Below, in pieces: positions 17,032 to 23,796 of a DNA stretch of 64,000 nt (the stretch's first letter is position 1; the number at the start of each line of letters is the position of its first letter). The position numbers and the translations under genes were made by a program. Origin of the DNA: Terriglobia bacterium (lineage in GTDB: Bacteria > Acidobacteriota > Terriglobia > Acidiferrales > UBA7541); contig JAIQEV010000003.1 of NCBI GenBank assembly GCA_020073585.1, positions 1 to 64,000 of the forward strand. Direction: 5' to 3'. Below the pieces are notes generated by a model. It was given only the letters and a program-made list of their open reading frames with translations. It was not told where the DNA came from and searched no databases.

Positions 17032-17440
17032 GTTCCTTCAAATGTTCGGTGCCGATTCCAGGCTGGCCCCGTTTGAAGAGACCAACAGTATGCAGACACC
17101 TGCAGCATCGAGACTTTGGCCCATGCGCGTGGGAAGCAAATTCACACGCGACAAGGTTCCGCCTCGCCGCCCGAAGGCACTACACTCCGCCACCTTCTGG
17201 AATTGAGTTCAGATGGTGCCAACTGGGACGCCGCAACGCAACTCTTTTCTGGCGGCGTCCGGCGGAAGGGGTCCGGGAGAGCGCCAGAAGGAGCCGCAGG
17301 AGGAAAGCGGCGGAAAGCCGGAGGGTCCAGAGGGCGCAGCGGCAGCAATAATTCTTTCTTATGTTATAGGCAATAATTATTAATTGGACTGATTCGCCCC
17401 TTCCCTCGCATTCTGGTAACGTCTTTGGCGGACTCCATCC
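17032..17440. other. Divergent intergenic region between dctA and the ilv leader
   Basis: No gene is supported; short open frames here lack ribosome sites and family resemblance. The segment 17346-17386 is distinctly AT-rich and is the likely site of the ilv promoter, although no clear -35/-10 pair could be picked. Purine-rich GC segments fill 17210-17340. Confidence 0.5.
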
Positions 17441-17560
17441 ATGGTCGCCAGCGCGTACGCATCGAAGCCACGAGTGTCCGGCAGAGCCGGGAGCGCGATT
17501 CGTGTCGTCGTGCGAATTCGCCCCATTCCTGGAAGCGTGCGCGGAGACACCGGCGGGTGA
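17441..17560 (+). CDS. Putative ilv leader peptide rich in Val and Ile
   Basis: A 39-codon open frame from ATG 17441 to TGA 17558-17560. Its C-terminal half has regulatory codons clustered as AIRVVVRIRPIPGSV (17495-17539): three Ile (ATT) and four Val codons in 15. The stop codon overlaps a segment able to pair with the 5' arm of the following terminator. This is the layout of leader peptides in branched-chain amino acid attenuators: ribosome stalling at Val/Ile codons when charged tRNA is scarce lets the antiterminator form. The ribosome site is weak; an in-frame GTG at 17474 is an alternative start. Confidence 0.55.
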   Translation: MVASAYASKPRVSGRAGSAIRVVVRIRPIPGSVRGDTGG

Positions 17561-17606
17561 TGGCAGCCTAGGAAAGAAATTCAAGCAGGACCCGGGGCCA
17601 TCATCC
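17555..17606 (+). promoter_or_regulatory. Antiterminator pairing of the ilv attenuator
   Basis: GGGTGATGGC (17555-17564), which includes the leader peptide stop codon, can pair with GCCATCATCC (17597-17606) over 10 bp with one G-U pair. The second segment is part of the 5' arm of the terminator, so the two structures exclude each other. Confidence 0.6.
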
Positions 17607-17634
17607 AGAGCAGGATGATGGCCCCGTAAATTTT
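17593..17634 (+). terminator. Attenuator terminator upstream of ilvD
   Basis: Perfect 14-bp stem, CGGGGCCATCATCC (17593-17606) with GGATGATGGCCCCG (17613-17626), loop AGAGCA, then TAAATTTT. It lies 41 bp upstream of the ilvD start codon and would stop transcription before the operon. Confidence 0.75.
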
Positions 17635-17674
17635 CGGGGCCGCGCAGTTCGCCGCGACCCATGAGGAGCGAGAA

Positions 17675-19420
17675 GTGAGCAACCCCTTACCCCGACCCCG
17701 GAGCAGCGCGCTAACCGACGGAGCGCATCGCGCGGCAGCGCGGGCCATGCTGCGCGCCACCGGCTTGCGCGACGAGGATCTCGCGCGGCCGCTCATCGGC
17801 ATCGCCAACACCTGGACCGAGATCGGCCCCTGCAACTACCACCTGAAGGAGCTTGCGGAGCACGTCAAGGCGGGGGTGCGCGCCGCGGGCGGGACGCCGC
17901 TGGAGTTCAACACCGTATCCATCTCCGACGGCATCACCATGGGCAGCGAAGGAATGCGCACGTCGCTGGTGAGCCGCGAGGTGATCGCGGACTCGATCGA
18001 GCTGGTGACGCGCGGCAATTTGCTGGACGCGCTGGTAGTGCTGGTGGGCTGCGACAAGACGATTCCGGGCGGGGTGATGGCGCTAGCGCGGATGGATATT
18101 CCCGGGCTGATTCTCTACGGCGGGTCCATCGCGCCGGGGCAGTTCCACGAGCGTCCGGTGACCATTCAGGACGTCTTCGAAGCGATCGGGGCGCACGCGC
18201 GCGGCGGCATGTCGGATGAGGATCTGCATGCGCTGGAGTGTTCCGCGTGCCCGGGCGCGGGAGCGTGCGGGGGACAGTTCACCGCGAACACCATGGCGCT
18301 GGTGTGCGAATTCCTGGGGATTGCGCCCATGGGGCTTTCGAGCATTCCGGCCACGAACAAGACCAAGGAGACGGCGGGGCACAAAGCGGGCGAGATGGTG
18401 ATCGAGCTGCTGCGGCGCGACGTGCGGCCCAGCGCCATCATCACTGCGCAGTCGCTGGAAAACGCGATTGCGGGGGTGGCCGCGACGGGCGGCTCGACCA
18501 ATGCCGTGCTGCACTTGCTGGCCATCGCTCAGGAAGCGCGGTTGCCGCTGGTGATCGACGATTTCGACCGCATCAGCGCGCGCACGCCGCTGCTGGCGGA
18601 CCTCAAGCCGGGCGGGCGTTTTGTAGCCACGGATCTGTACGCGGCGGGCGGCACGGCGCTGGTGGCGCAGCGGCTGCGCCAAGCGGGCCTGCTGCACGGC
18701 GATTGCCGCACCGTGACGGGAAAGAGCATCGGCGAAGAAGCCGCGGCGGCGAAAGAGACGCCGGGGCAGGAAGTGGTGCTCCCGGCGGCCAAGCCGCTCA
18801 AGCCAACGGGCGGGCTGGTGATTCTGAAGGGCAACCTTGCGCCGGAAGGCTGCGTGGTGAAAGTGGCGGGGCACAACATCCAGGAGTTCCGCGGACCGGC
18901 GCGGGTATTCGACAGCGAAGAAGCGTCGTTCGCGGCGCTGCAGCAGGGCGGGATACGCGCGGGCGACGTGGTGGTGATCCGCTACGAGGGGCCGAACGGC
19001 GGACCGGGGATGCGCGAGATGCTGGCGGTGACCGCGGCGCTGGTGGGAGCGGGGCTGGGCGACAGCGTGGCGCTGCTCACCGACGGGCGCTTTTCCGGAG
19101 CGACGCATGGGCTGATGGCCGGGCACGTGGCACCGGAAGCGGCGGCGGGCGGACCGATCGCGGCGCTGCGCGACGGCGACATCATCGTGTTCGATATTCC
19201 CAAGCGGGCGTTGCGCGCCGAGGTTTCCGACGACGTGCTACGCGAGCGCCTGCGCAGCTGGACGCCGCCGGCGCCGCGCTACACCAGCGGAGTGATGGCG
19301 AAATACGCGCTGCTGGTCTCCTCGGCGTCGCGCGGGGCGATCACCACGGTGCCCGCGGGGGTACGTTCTCTATCCGCACCGGCACCTGCAACGGCGCCGC
19401 TTCCAGCGAGGACGATATGA
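17675..19420 (+). CDS. ilvD: Dihydroxy-acid dehydratase
   Basis: A 581-residue IlvD/Edd-family dehydratase. It converts 2,3-dihydroxy-isovalerate and -methylvalerate to the 2-keto acids in Val and Ile synthesis. It carries the Fe-S and substrate motifs GCDKTIPGG and [16 protein letters not shown], the KGNLAPEG segment, and the C-terminal [19 protein letters not shown]. The start is GTG 17675 with GAGGAG upstream. First gene of ilvD-ilvB-ilvN-ilvC; its end overlaps the ilvB start (ATGA), showing translational coupling. Regulation is probably by the attenuator at 17441-17634. Confidence 0.96.
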
Positions 19421-21126
19421 AACGCACCGGCGCGGAAATTCTCTGCGAAACACTGCAGCGCCTGGGGGTCAAGGATATTTTCGGCTACCCGGGCGGGGCG
19501 ATACTGCCGACGTACGACGCGATTGGGCGGTCGCAACTGCACCACGTCCTGGTGCGGCACGAGCAGGGCGCGACGCACATGGCCGACGGCTACGCGCGGG
19601 CGAGCGGAGGAGTGGGCGTGGCCATGGCCACGTCGGGACCCGGCGCGACGAACATGGTCACCGGGATCGCCACGGCCATGCTGGATTCTTCGCCGGTGGT
19701 GTGCATTACCGGGCAGGTGAGCAGCAAGCTGCTGGGCAGCGATGCGTTCCAGGAGATCGACATCACGGGCATCACCATGCCCATCACCAAGCACAATTCG
19801 ATCGTGTCGCGCGCGGAGGACATCGCGCGGGCGGTGCGCGAAGCGTTCGTCATCGCGGCGTCCGGCAGGCCGGGACCCGTGCTGGTGGACGTCACGAAAG
19901 ACGCGCAGCAGGGGACGTGCGAGCTGGACTGGGAGGCCGCCACGCCGAAGCTGCCGCCCAAGCGCCTGCACCCGGCCTGCGAGGAAACCGAGTTCGCCCG
20001 CGCCGTGGAACTCCTGAACTCCGCGAAGCGTCCCGTGATCCTGGCGGGGCATGGGGTGCAAATTGCCGGCGCGGTGCGCGCGCTGGAGGCGTTCGTGCGC
20101 CGCGGACACTTCCCGGTGGCCATGACGCTGCTGGGCATCGGAACGTTTCCGGCCACCGATCCGCTGAATCTGGGGATGATGGGCATGCACGGGGAAGCGT
20201 GGGTGAACCGCGCGATTCAGGAGTCCGACCTGATCGTGGCCGTGGGGATGCGCTTCGACGACCGCGTCACCGGGGACCTGCGCACGTACGCGACAGACGC
20301 CCGGAAGATTCACATCGAGATCGACCGCTCGGAGATCAACAAGAACGTAAAGGTGGACGCGGCGCTGGTGGGCGACGCGCGCGAACTGCTGGAGCAACTG
20401 CTTCCCTGCCTGGAGCCGCGCGACCGCAGCGAATGGGTGGAGTACATCCGCACGCTGAAAGGCCATTCCGCGGTGCGCGACATCCAGAGCCTGCCGGACA
20501 GCGGGCATCTCTACGCGGCACACGTGATCAACGATTTGTGGAAGGAAACGAAGGGGCGGGCGCTGGTGGTCAGCGACGTGGGGCAGCACCAGATGTGGGA
20601 GGCGCAGTATTACCACCACGACCGGCCGCGCTCGCTGATCACCTCGGGCGGCCTGGGAACGATGGGGTTTGCGCTGCCGGCGGCGATCGGGGCGAAATTC
20701 GCGAAGCCGGAGGACGAGGTCTGGGTGGTGGTGGGCGACGGCGGGTTCCAGATGACCATGTGCGAGCTGGCGACGATCGTACAGGAAAAGATCAACGTCA
20801 AGATCGCCATCATCAACAACGGCTACCTGGGCATGGTGCGGCAGTGGCAGGAGTTTTTCTACGACAAGCGCTACGTGGCCACGCCGCTGGTGGCGCCGGA
20901 CTTCTGTGCGCTGGCCAGCGCCTTCGGGATCCGCAGCGAGAAGGTCGGCACGCGCGGCGAAGTGCTGCCGGCGATCCGCAAGGCGCGGGAGGCCGCGGAG
21001 ACGGTGCTGCTGGATTTCCGCGTGGAGCAGGAAGACGCGGTGTATCCGATGGTGCCGGCGGGCGCGGCGCTGCATGAAATGATCCGGCGGCCGAGCCCGC
21101 TGGTGGAAACCGCGACGGAGCCGTGA
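19417..21126 (+). CDS. ilvB: Acetolactate synthase, large catalytic subunit
   Basis: A 569-residue thiamine-diphosphate enzyme making acetolactate or acetohydroxybutyrate, the first common step of branched-chain amino acid synthesis. The catalytic Glu lies in [15 protein letters not shown]; the ThDP/Mg motif runs from GDGGFQMT to IINN. FAD-region signatures such as [12 protein letters not shown] are present. The start ATG 19417 overlaps the ilvD stop by 4 bp. It is followed after 7 bp by the regulatory subunit gene. Confidence 0.96.
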
Positions 21127-21133
21127 GGAGCGT

Positions 21134-21667
21134 ATGAAAACACTGGTAGCGTACGTGGAAAACAAACCGGGCGTGCTGAACCGCGTGGCGTCGCTGGCGC
21201 GGCGGCTGGCGATCAATATCGATTCGCTGACGGTGGGACCGACGGAGAACGACGAGATCGCGCGCATGACGGTGGTGGTGCACACCGACGAGCAGGGAGC
21301 GCGGCGGGTGCAGGCCAGCCTGGAGAAGCTGGTGGACGTGCTGCTGGCGGAAAACATCTCGGGGCGCCCGGCGGTGGTGCGCGACCTGGCACTGATCAAA
21401 GTGGCGGCGGACCAGAAGTCGCGGCCGCACCTGATGGAACTGGTGAAGGTGTTCCGGGCGCGGGTGGTGGACGTGGCGCCGGAATCGCTGATCCTGGAAG
21501 TATCCGGAACGGTGCACAAGATCGACAGCCTGCTGGAAGTGCTGCGGCCGTTCGGCGTGCTGGAGATGGCGCGCACGGGCAGCGTGGCGATGACCCGCGG
21601 CGCGGACCTGCTGCAGCCGCCGGCAGCGGCGGAAGCCAGCGCCGGCTGCGCCGTCAAACCGAATTAA
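21134..21667 (+). CDS. ilvN: Acetolactate synthase, small regulatory subunit
   Basis: A 177-residue protein with an N-terminal ACT domain ([20 protein letters not shown]) that binds valine for feedback inhibition, and the C-terminal ALS_ss domain ([20 protein letters not shown]). It activates the large subunit and makes it Val-sensitive. The length is usual for the IlvH/IlvN long form. The start ATG 21134 follows GAGGAGCGT. Third gene of the operon. Confidence 0.95.
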
Positions 21668-21737: not shown

Positions 21738-22751
21738 ATGGCGAAGATGTATTACGAAAACTCGGCGGACCTGGCCCTGATTCGGGCGAAAAAAGTGGCG
21801 ATTCTGGGCTATGGATCGCAGGGGCATGCGCATGCGCTGAATCTGCGCGACAGCGGAGTGGAGGTGCGCGTGGGGCTGCCGGAGAAGAGCAATTCCCGCG
21901 CGCGGGCGCAGAAGGACGGGGTGACCGTGCAGACGCCGGCGGAAGCGGCGGCCTGGGCGGACGTGATCATGATCCTGGTGCCGGACACCAAGCAGCCGGC
22001 GCTGTACCGCGAGGCGGTGGAGCCGAGCCTGAAGCCCGGAAAGATGCTGATGTTCGCGCACGGCTTCAACATCCGCTTCGGAACGATCAAGCCGCCGGCC
22101 ACGGTGGACGTGACGATGATCGCGCCCAAGGCGCCGGGGCACCGGGTGCGCGAAGTGTTCGTGGAAGGCGGAGGAACGCCGGGATTGCTGGCGGTACACC
22201 AGGACGCCACGGGCAACGCCAAGGCGCTGGCGCTGGCTTACGCGCGGGGGATCGGCTGCACGCGCGCCGGGGTGATCGAGACGACGTTCACCGAAGAGAC
22301 GGAGACGGATCTGTTCGGCGAGCAGGCGGTGCTGTGCGGCGGGGTGAGCGCGCTGATCAAGGCGGGGTTCGACACGCTGGTGGAAGCGGGCTACCAGCCG
22401 GAGATCGCCTACTTCGAATGCCTGCATGAGCTGAAGCTGATCGTGGACCTGATCTACAAGGGCGGGCTGAGCTACATGCGCTATTCGGTGAGCGACACGG
22501 CGGAGTACGGCGATTACACGGGCGGGCCGCGCGTGGTGACCGAGGAAACGCGCAAGGAGATGCGCAAGATGCTCGCGGAGATCCGCGACGGAAGCTTCGC
22601 GAAAGCGTGGATCGCGGAAAACGAAAAGGGCTGCCCGAACTTCAAGGAGATGCGGCGGCGCGAACGCAAGCATCCGATCGAAGCGACTGTGGGCCCGCAA
22701 CTGCGGGCCATGATGCCCTTCCTGCAGCCGGTGATCGCTCCGGAAGAATAG
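21738..22751 (+). CDS. ilvC: Ketol-acid reductoisomerase, class I
   Basis: A 337-residue KARI, which isomerises and reduces acetolactate to dihydroxy-isovalerate using NAD(P)H and Mg2+. The N-terminal Rossmann segment is [20 protein letters not shown]. The C-terminal knotted domain has the metal ligands in [22 protein letters not shown] and in [17 protein letters not shown]. The length fits the short class I form. GGAGGAAGAGC precedes ATG 21738. Last gene of the ilv operon; a strong hairpin follows at 22818-22847. Confidence 0.96.
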
Positions 22752-22923: not shown

Positions 22924-23796
22924 ATGACTAGAAGCTCAAAGGTTCCTCAAGCGCCTGCGCCCAACCTCGCCGAGGGCATCGCGCGGCTCAGCGCCAAGCG
23001 CCAGGAGATCATCCGCCCGATCCTGGAACAGCCGCGCGATTTTGTTCTGCTCAGCGTGCGGGCGATGGCCAAACACCTGAAGACGGACCCCGCGACGATC
23101 GTGCGCATCGTCCGCGGCCTGGGCTTTGGCAGCTACCGCGAATTTCAGCGCCACCTCCACAGCCTCTCGATCGCTTTTGCCACCTCGCTGGATACCATGC
23201 AGACCGCCGGCGGGAAGGATTCCAGCATTCCCGGCCATATCCGGGAATCGCTGGAGCAAGACCTGAAAAACCTGCAGGCGCTGAAGAACAGCCTGGACGC
23301 GCGGCGCCTGACGGCCGTGGCCAAGCGGTTGTATGCGGCGCGGCGGATCCTGCTGCTGGCCGGGGACCTGGCGACCACGCTGGCCTATTTTTTCGATTAC
23401 CAGGCCAGCGTTCTCGGCCTGCCGCTGTTTTCCGCGACCTCCTCGGGACGGATCACGCATCTGGTGCGCAACGTGAGCAGCAAGGACGTGGTGATCGCCA
23501 TCAGTTTCCGGCGCGGTCTGCGGCAGACCGTGGAAGGACTGGCGCAGGCGCACAGCCGCGGCGCGCACTGTGTCGGCATCACCGACACGTTCCTCTCTCC
23601 ACTGGCGCGGCACTGCGACGAGCTGTTCCTGGCGCCGGTCGAGTCGCCCTCGTTCGCGGCCTCCTATGCCGCTCCCATGTCCCTGCTCAGCGCGCTGCTG
23701 GCCGCCTGCGGCGAAGTGCGCCGGCCCCGGACGCTGGCGCTGATGAAGCAGGTGGCGGAGGAGCAGCGCAAAGGATTCCGCTGGTGGGCGTCCTGA
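22924..23796 (+). CDS. RpiR/MurR-family transcriptional regulator with SIS domain
   Basis: A 290-residue regulator. The N-terminal HTH_6 domain (about 15-90) contains LSVRAMAKHLKTDPATIVRI followed by GFGSYREFQRHL. The C-terminal SIS domain (about 125-265) should bind a sugar phosphate or related ligand: LLLAGDLATTLAYFF, KDVVIAISFRRGLRQTVEG and GAHCVGITD. RpiR proteins control sugar-phosphate and amino-sugar (MurNAc) catabolism. Its neighbours downstream, a racemase and a cell-wall carboxypeptidase/D-aminoacylase, suggest control of cell-wall-derived or D-amino-acid metabolism (inference). ATG 22924 lacks a strong ribosome site. Confidence 0.88.
   Translation: MTRSSKVPQAPAPNLAEGIARLSAKRQEIIRPILEQPRDFVLLSVRAMAKHLKTDPATIVRIVRGLGFGSYREFQRHLHSLSIAFATSLDTMQTAGGKDSSIPGHIRESLEQDLKNLQALKNSLDARRLTAVAKRLYAARRILLLAGDLATTLAYFFDYQASVLGLPLFSATSSGRITHLVRNVSSKDVVIAISFRRGLRQTVEGLAQAHSRGAHCVGITDTFLSPLARHCDELFLAPVESPSFAASYAAPMSLLSALLAACGEVRRPRTLALMKQVAEEQRKGFRWWAS

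Follow-up and report, generated by a model that had tools for sequence, protein, structure and literature searches.

A leader ahead of ilvDBNC in Acidobacteriota predicted to act as a ribosome-mediated Val/Ile attenuator

The ilvDBNC operon in the window (the whole 64-kb stretch of DNA, from a soil acidobacterium, that was analysed) is preceded by a leader that we predict, with a probability of roughly 90%, to be a ribosome-mediated transcription attenuator responding to valine and isoleucine. At the sequence level, the leader shows each of the features that we looked for as characteristic of ribosome-mediated amino-acid attenuators, except for a mapped promoter. Its codons match the product of the operon (25.7% of the codons in frame specify Val or Ile, and the operon is ilvDBNC), conservative substitutions confined to the leader frame indicate that it is selected as a coding frame, an intrinsic terminator with covariation (0 of 500 shuffles as high) lies between the leader ORF and the first gene, and a mutually exclusive antiterminator would, by computation only (96% pairing, geometry and occlusion folding), be masked by a ribosome at the stop codon and free when the ribosome stalls. 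The elements of the region and the genes that follow it are these:

17359..17389, plus strand: promoter-upstream element, TTAT-N10-ATAA then TTATTAATTGGAC; a conserved feature of ilvD upstream regions in the genus, with a matching element before leuA
17414..17422, plus strand: putative extended -10 (TG-G-TAACGT), aligning with TGnTACTTT / TGnTAATCT of relatives
17426..17450, plus strand: 5' hairpin TGGCG(G)AC / GTCGCCA, read from the sequence; its loop contains the leader start codon
17441..17560, plus strand: leader ORF of 39 codons, MVASAYASKPRVSGRAGSAIRVVVRIRPIPGSVRGDTGG, stop codon TGA at 17558-17560; Val/Ile enrichment specific to this frame, conservative substitutions genus-wide
17498..17539, plus strand: putative control codons, IRVVVRIRPIPGSV, the Val/Ile cluster of a leader conserved in the genus
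17555..17564, plus strand: antiterminator 5' strand, GGGTGATGGC, including the leader stop codon and pairing with 17597-17606
17557..17571, plus strand: overlapping mini-ORF GTG ATG GCA GCC TAG, with a second, out-of-frame stop at 17569-17571
17593..17634, plus strand: intrinsic terminator, 14-bp stem 17593-17606 / 17613-17626, then TAAATTTT
17663..17668, plus strand: Shine-Dalgarno sequence GAGGAG of ilvD, read from the sequence
17675..19420, plus strand: ilvD, dihydroxy-acid dehydratase; GTG start, TIGR00110 above cut-off
19417..21126, plus strand: ilvB, acetolactate synthase large subunit; ATGA overlap with ilvD, TIGR00118 above cut-off
21134..21667, plus strand: ilvN/ilvH, acetolactate synthase small subunit; TIGR00119 above cut-off
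21738..22751, plus strand: ilvC, ketol-acid reductoisomerase; TIGR00465 above cut-off

A gene for a MurR/RpiR-like regulator, with weak NCBIfam matches below cut-off, lies 3' of ilvC on the same strand (22924-23796).

According to the mechanism that we propose, transcription of ilvDBNC would be set by how much charged Val and Ile tRNA is available. The RNA would start about 12 nt 5' of the leader ORF. With Val and Ile plentiful, a ribosome translating the leader would reach the stop codon at 17558 and cover 17555-17564; with this antiterminator strand covered, the 14-bp terminator would form and transcription would end before ilvD. With Val or Ile in short supply, the ribosome would stall at 17498-17539, the antiterminator strand would be free to pair with the 5' terminator arm, and RNA polymerase would be expected to continue into the operon.

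The leader frame and the competing stems

The initial annotation had described a 39-codon frame with a Val/Ile cluster, a 14-bp terminator hairpin followed by a T-run, and a 10-bp antiterminator formed between a strand that takes in the leader stop codon and the 5' arm of the terminator. The frame (17441-17560, cluster at 17498-17539) and the antiterminator are present as it had placed them, as is the terminator hairpin at 17593-17626, a perfect 14-bp stem with a loop of 6; a T-run is likewise there, yet the emphasis put on it needs correction, the run being weak and interrupted in the window (TAAATTTT) and comprising 5-7 consecutive T in most relatives. The annotation had also proposed that related leaders be examined for retained Val/Ile codons and for compensatory changes in both stems. 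The Val/Ile frame indeed proves to be kept as a coding frame, compensatory pairs occur in the terminator stem, and the antiterminator has one clean double change and one co-ordinated change, as detailed below.

Val and Ile codons clustered as densely as in IRVVVRIRPIPG (6 in 12 codons) arise in 0.21% of shuffled leaders, any frame being counted. The alignment used for the pairing and codon tests comprises 30 leaders of the genus, and the fraction of Val plus Ile in it is 0.257 in the leader frame as opposed to 0.062 and 0.055 in the other two, with a mean of 0.107 and a maximum of 0.150 in 1000 shuffles. Substitutions in the leader frame are conservative, with a mean BLOSUM score of 0.08 versus -0.68 and -0.72 in the other two frames, a value matched or exceeded by 2 of 60 column shuffles; kinship of the leader sequences makes these codon and coding tests overstate independence, the three-frame contrast within the same sequences being less affected. 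Typical leaders of the genus end in IVVRIIPVPVRGTTGG or VIVGIGFVLVGGRTSG directly before the stop, and that of the window ends in AIRVVVRIRPIPGSVRGDTGG.

In the same alignment, 96.8% of the terminator pairs are kept and there are 9 double-change cells, with none of 500 shuffles scoring as high. Sequences within one mismatch of the terminator core are single-copy in genomes of the genus and stand 5' of ilvD. The antiterminator, formed by GGGTGATGGC (17555-17564) and GCCATCATCC (17597-17606), consists of 9 Watson-Crick pairs and one G-U pair; 96% of the pairs are kept in the 30 relatives, compared with 21-58% in slid controls. Its one clean double change is GGATAATGGC with GCCATTATCC in L010, where the TGA of the box has become TAA, and in two distant loci (L040 and L042) all three strands are altered together (GGATGACG / CCGTCATCC / GATGACGG). 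Covariation of the antiterminator is sparse because a single strand has to fit both of its partners. When the two strands of the window were scanned for a terminator with a T-run and an antiterminator, 2 matches were returned, of which the one at ilvD is alone in having a Val/Ile leader; the same scan of four shuffled windows returned 1, 0, 0 and 0 matches.

The start of the last Val codon lies 18 nt 5' of the antiterminator box, and a stalled ribosome covers about 12 nt of RNA downstream (PMC4833913), so that a ribosome stalled at this codon should leave the box free and one at 17558 should cover it. Folding was modelled at equilibrium on the transcript truncated at the terminator loop, with kinetics outside the model. 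The median probability of the antiterminator is 0.98-0.99 with the ribosome at the Val/Ile codons and 0 with the ribosome at the stop codon, the latter value following from the occlusion itself and hence providing no independent evidence. It is 0.99 without any ribosome, so that read-through is what the model predicts for an untranslated leader, in contrast to the classical trp design. The switch envisaged by the initial annotation, with the antiterminator freed by a ribosome at the Val/Ile codons and covered by one at the stop, is well supported by the comparison with relatives, agrees with spacing and constrained folding, and stands as a prediction.

We found no conserved strong protector hairpin by genus alignment and folding. 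A candidate helix between an arm of the 5' hairpin and the antiterminator strand is paired in 86% of cells and shows modest covariation, but it is poor in the window and folding gives it a probability near 0 when no ribosome is present, and we do not claim it. When the leader of the window is folded at full length, the minimum-energy structure does pair the antiterminator strand upstream. The 5' hairpin itself keeps 79% of its pairs in the 30 relatives, with covariation weakly above shuffles.

A second stop codon beside the antiterminator

A second stop codon, 11 nt 3' of the leader stop and in frame with an overlapping (A/G)TG ATG, is present in 27 of the 30 aligned leaders (TAG in 17, TAA in 9, TGA in 1) and also in L131. 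It lies outside the pairing strands, and the chance of a stop is about 4% per codon. On the ilvD tree, accounting for the state of this codon takes six changes: in two the stop is gained or lost, and about four replace one stop by another. In other families a stop usually ends the ATGATG frame at once or within two more codons (MM, MMA or MMxA before the stop), exceptions being L033/L204, L034, L038, L046 and L051. We read this pattern as a sign of selection to end translation near the box in more than one frame.

One explanation, to which we give slightly less than even odds, holds that the second stop (the mini-ORF only) is a back-up for leaders that have been frame-shifted by indels rather than a reinitiation device. 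The true control-codon frame does finish at the second stop in six leaders (L005, L198, L200, L201, L202 and L203); most leaders of the genus, however, end this frame at the TGA, and yet the second stop has survived about four exchanges among TAG, TAA and TGA. A back-up stop may itself be selected, so this reading overlaps with one based on reinitiation, which is a plausible, unproven cause of the second stop. The fuller proposal that we put forward, tentatively and with distinctly less than even confidence, is that a ribosome terminating on the leader reinitiates at the AUG-AUG or GUG-AUG of a mini-ORF of 2-4 codons that has a stop of its own; the ribosome would be detained on the antiterminator strand without entering the terminator, which would make the off state sharper. 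The proposal further has a single genome using one such core repeatedly while exchanging the leader codons, Val/Ile for ilv and Thr for hom. In the window, the stop at 17569-17571 may be what ends translation by ribosomes that reinitiate at the overlapping GTG-ATG, a step less certain than the others in the mechanism. The element would provide an example of a conserved overlapping mini-ORF within an attenuator.

Conservation, spread and alternative explanations

The leader region and the terminator are kept in 31 of the 33 ilvD upstream regions examined in the genus, most of the 31 having conserved a promoter-proximal leader, the Val/Ile-rich frame, the antiterminator box over the leader stop and the terminator; the whole leader and the terminator are lost in the other two (L013 and L123). 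Four leaders (L019, L025, L026 and L028) are without a clear Val/Ile frame, the antiterminator is weak or absent in three (L003, L025 and L028), and several are frame-shifted, with the end of the Val/Ile frame ranging from -5 to +23 relative to the box. In L025 and L028, a pair of relatives, in which the Val/Ile frame and the antiterminator are degraded, a frame beginning in the box continues into the terminator.

A strict blind detector, with thresholds so strict that the leader of the window itself is missed, recovered 16 of the 33 loci of the genus and 7 of 80 wider loci, with 0 hits in antisense and 0 in random sequences. The exact core occurs in about a dozen of 396 genomes of the phylum, a lower bound given the exact patterns used, with some pattern matches being due to chance and lacking a leader or a terminator; exact patterns were chosen over a covariance model since the antiterminator box is misaligned in the wider set. 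By eye, the same arrangement with a different core can also be recognized in Geothrix/Holophagaceae, with GGCCCCGC stems, and in L112, from a genome of the same order.

The genes found 3' of the exact core encode, besides ilvD and ilvB, homoserine dehydrogenase (hom), a LysR regulator and glutamate synthase. Cores before ilvD or ilvB in distant families carry Val/Ile leaders, and those before hom carry Thr-rich leaders (with MTQTRGTTATMMTPTVVMSITTTATP and MPANRTVSTTVVPTKAPAT). Three genomes (G099, G310 and G135) have two copies of the core each, with Val/Ile-rich leaders at ilvD, Thr-rich leaders at hom and a core sequence common to both. Our strongest argument that the leaders are sensors is precisely that their codons match the operon. 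Homoserine dehydrogenase lies behind the same core in L199, L201, L203 and L224, the leader being clearly Thr-rich in L201, L203 and L224 and less so in L199. The same core also stands before a gene for the glutamate synthase large subunit in L194 (G432:C83), where the leader is weak (SVTIMISAMTPGGGDG). An attenuator was sought before the best homoserine dehydrogenase match of the genome under study as well; a hairpin is present there, but no matching core.

These observations bear on the possibility, very unlikely in our view, that the hairpin, as an intrinsic terminator, acts constitutively to trim read-through or fix a basal level, with the Val/Ile frame not being a sensor. Three loci (L019, L025 and L028) do keep the terminator without the Val/Ile frame or the antiterminator, as such a role would allow. 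It would nevertheless leave unexplained the paired box at the leader stop, the coding signal that retains Val and Ile, and the Thr codons before hom; moreover, the neighbour on the other side, dctA, is oriented away from the ilv leader, which leaves no transcript from upstream that would have to be terminated. Hardly credible is an element that acts mainly at translation or through binding of a ligand (as in a riboswitch) or of a protein to the RNA, the small ORF then being incidental: the 5' hairpin, whose loop contains the leader start codon, could gate leader translation, but no Rfam family matches (the covariance-model search gave above the gathering score a tRNA elsewhere in the window alone, and nothing relevant at E up to 10), the conserved core consists of two mutually exclusive helices and a T-run, and the ilvD Shine-Dalgarno sequence lies outside the switch, 37 nt 3' of the terminator.

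Known attenuators, the promoter region and associated regulators

Most documented cases of ribosome-mediated attenuation come from Proteobacteria and Actinobacteria, and the enteric ilvGMEDA and ilvBN operons are controlled by leader attenuators of this type. The leader described here resembles the enteric ones in its short ORF rich in codons for branched-chain amino acids (Ile/Val, in part also Leu, in the enteric leaders), in its exclusive antiterminator and terminator, and in preceding a biosynthetic ilv operon. It differs from them in its unrelated sequence, in an antiterminator strand that includes the leader stop, in starting near the putative 5' end of the transcript, and in that no conserved strong protector hairpin was found, with the untranslated leader hence predicted to read through. 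Attenuators of the thrABC type, with Thr/Ile leaders, are known from phyla other than Acidobacteriota; the Thr-rich hom leaders found here have the same architecture and different sequences. In actinobacterial ilvB leaders, Val, Ile and Leu codons overlap the terminator hairpin, the mode of action having been left open (PMC1262725), and ilvBNC of C. glutamicum has been modelled with a terminator, an antiterminator and an anti-antiterminator (PMC11857589). Like these, our leader combines an ORF rich in such codons with a terminator before an acetolactate synthase operon; unlike in these, the codons lie upstream of the terminator and the stop codon overlaps the antiterminator.

A survey has predicted attenuators in Acidobacteria, almost none of them with an associated function (PMC2965389), whereas a function is proposed for the ilv leader here. 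The initial annotation was aware of no such attenuator in this lineage, and we likewise found no earlier functional assignment of an amino-acid attenuator in Acidobacteria in the open-access literature searched. The ilv leader would thus represent a concrete, conserved case in Acidobacteriota, with a core reused for Val/Ile and Thr leaders, and a testable example of sensor codons changing while the switch stays unchanged.

A transcription start downstream of 17560 had been named as an observation that would speak against attenuation; a conserved promoter block sits just 5' of the leader ORF instead. Relatives have TTGACT 17 bp 5' of the aligned -10, the -35 of the window is weak, and a consensus promoter scan of the window gave no promoter above threshold. 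We infer that transcription starts at about 17429, so that the 5' end of the leader would be short and similar to that of a leaderless mRNA. A frame from an ATG further upstream, at the putative transcript start, that leads into the mini-ORF frame is open in L004, L007 and L011 and closed in L008, L015 and L024 (by eye), and does not define a conserved ORF.

The promoter-upstream element at 17359..17389 is probably the binding site of a DNA-binding regulator, and it is retained where the ilvD attenuator has been lost (L013 and L123). In the genus, ilvD and leuA have a common promoter element, TTAT-N10-ATAA followed by AT(T/A)AATTnGAC (leuA loci L162 and L165-L193). No attenuator was seen before leuA in the same genome, where there are a short leader and the common promoter element only. 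The leuA gene is divergent from a LysR-type gene (L162:494-1375:-), whose product is a candidate regulator of both ilvD and leuA. In L195 (G112:C53), a Val/Leu/Ile-rich leader and the same attenuator core precede a LysR-type gene that shares 40% identity with the one linked to leuA, which suggests that this regulator may itself be attenuated.
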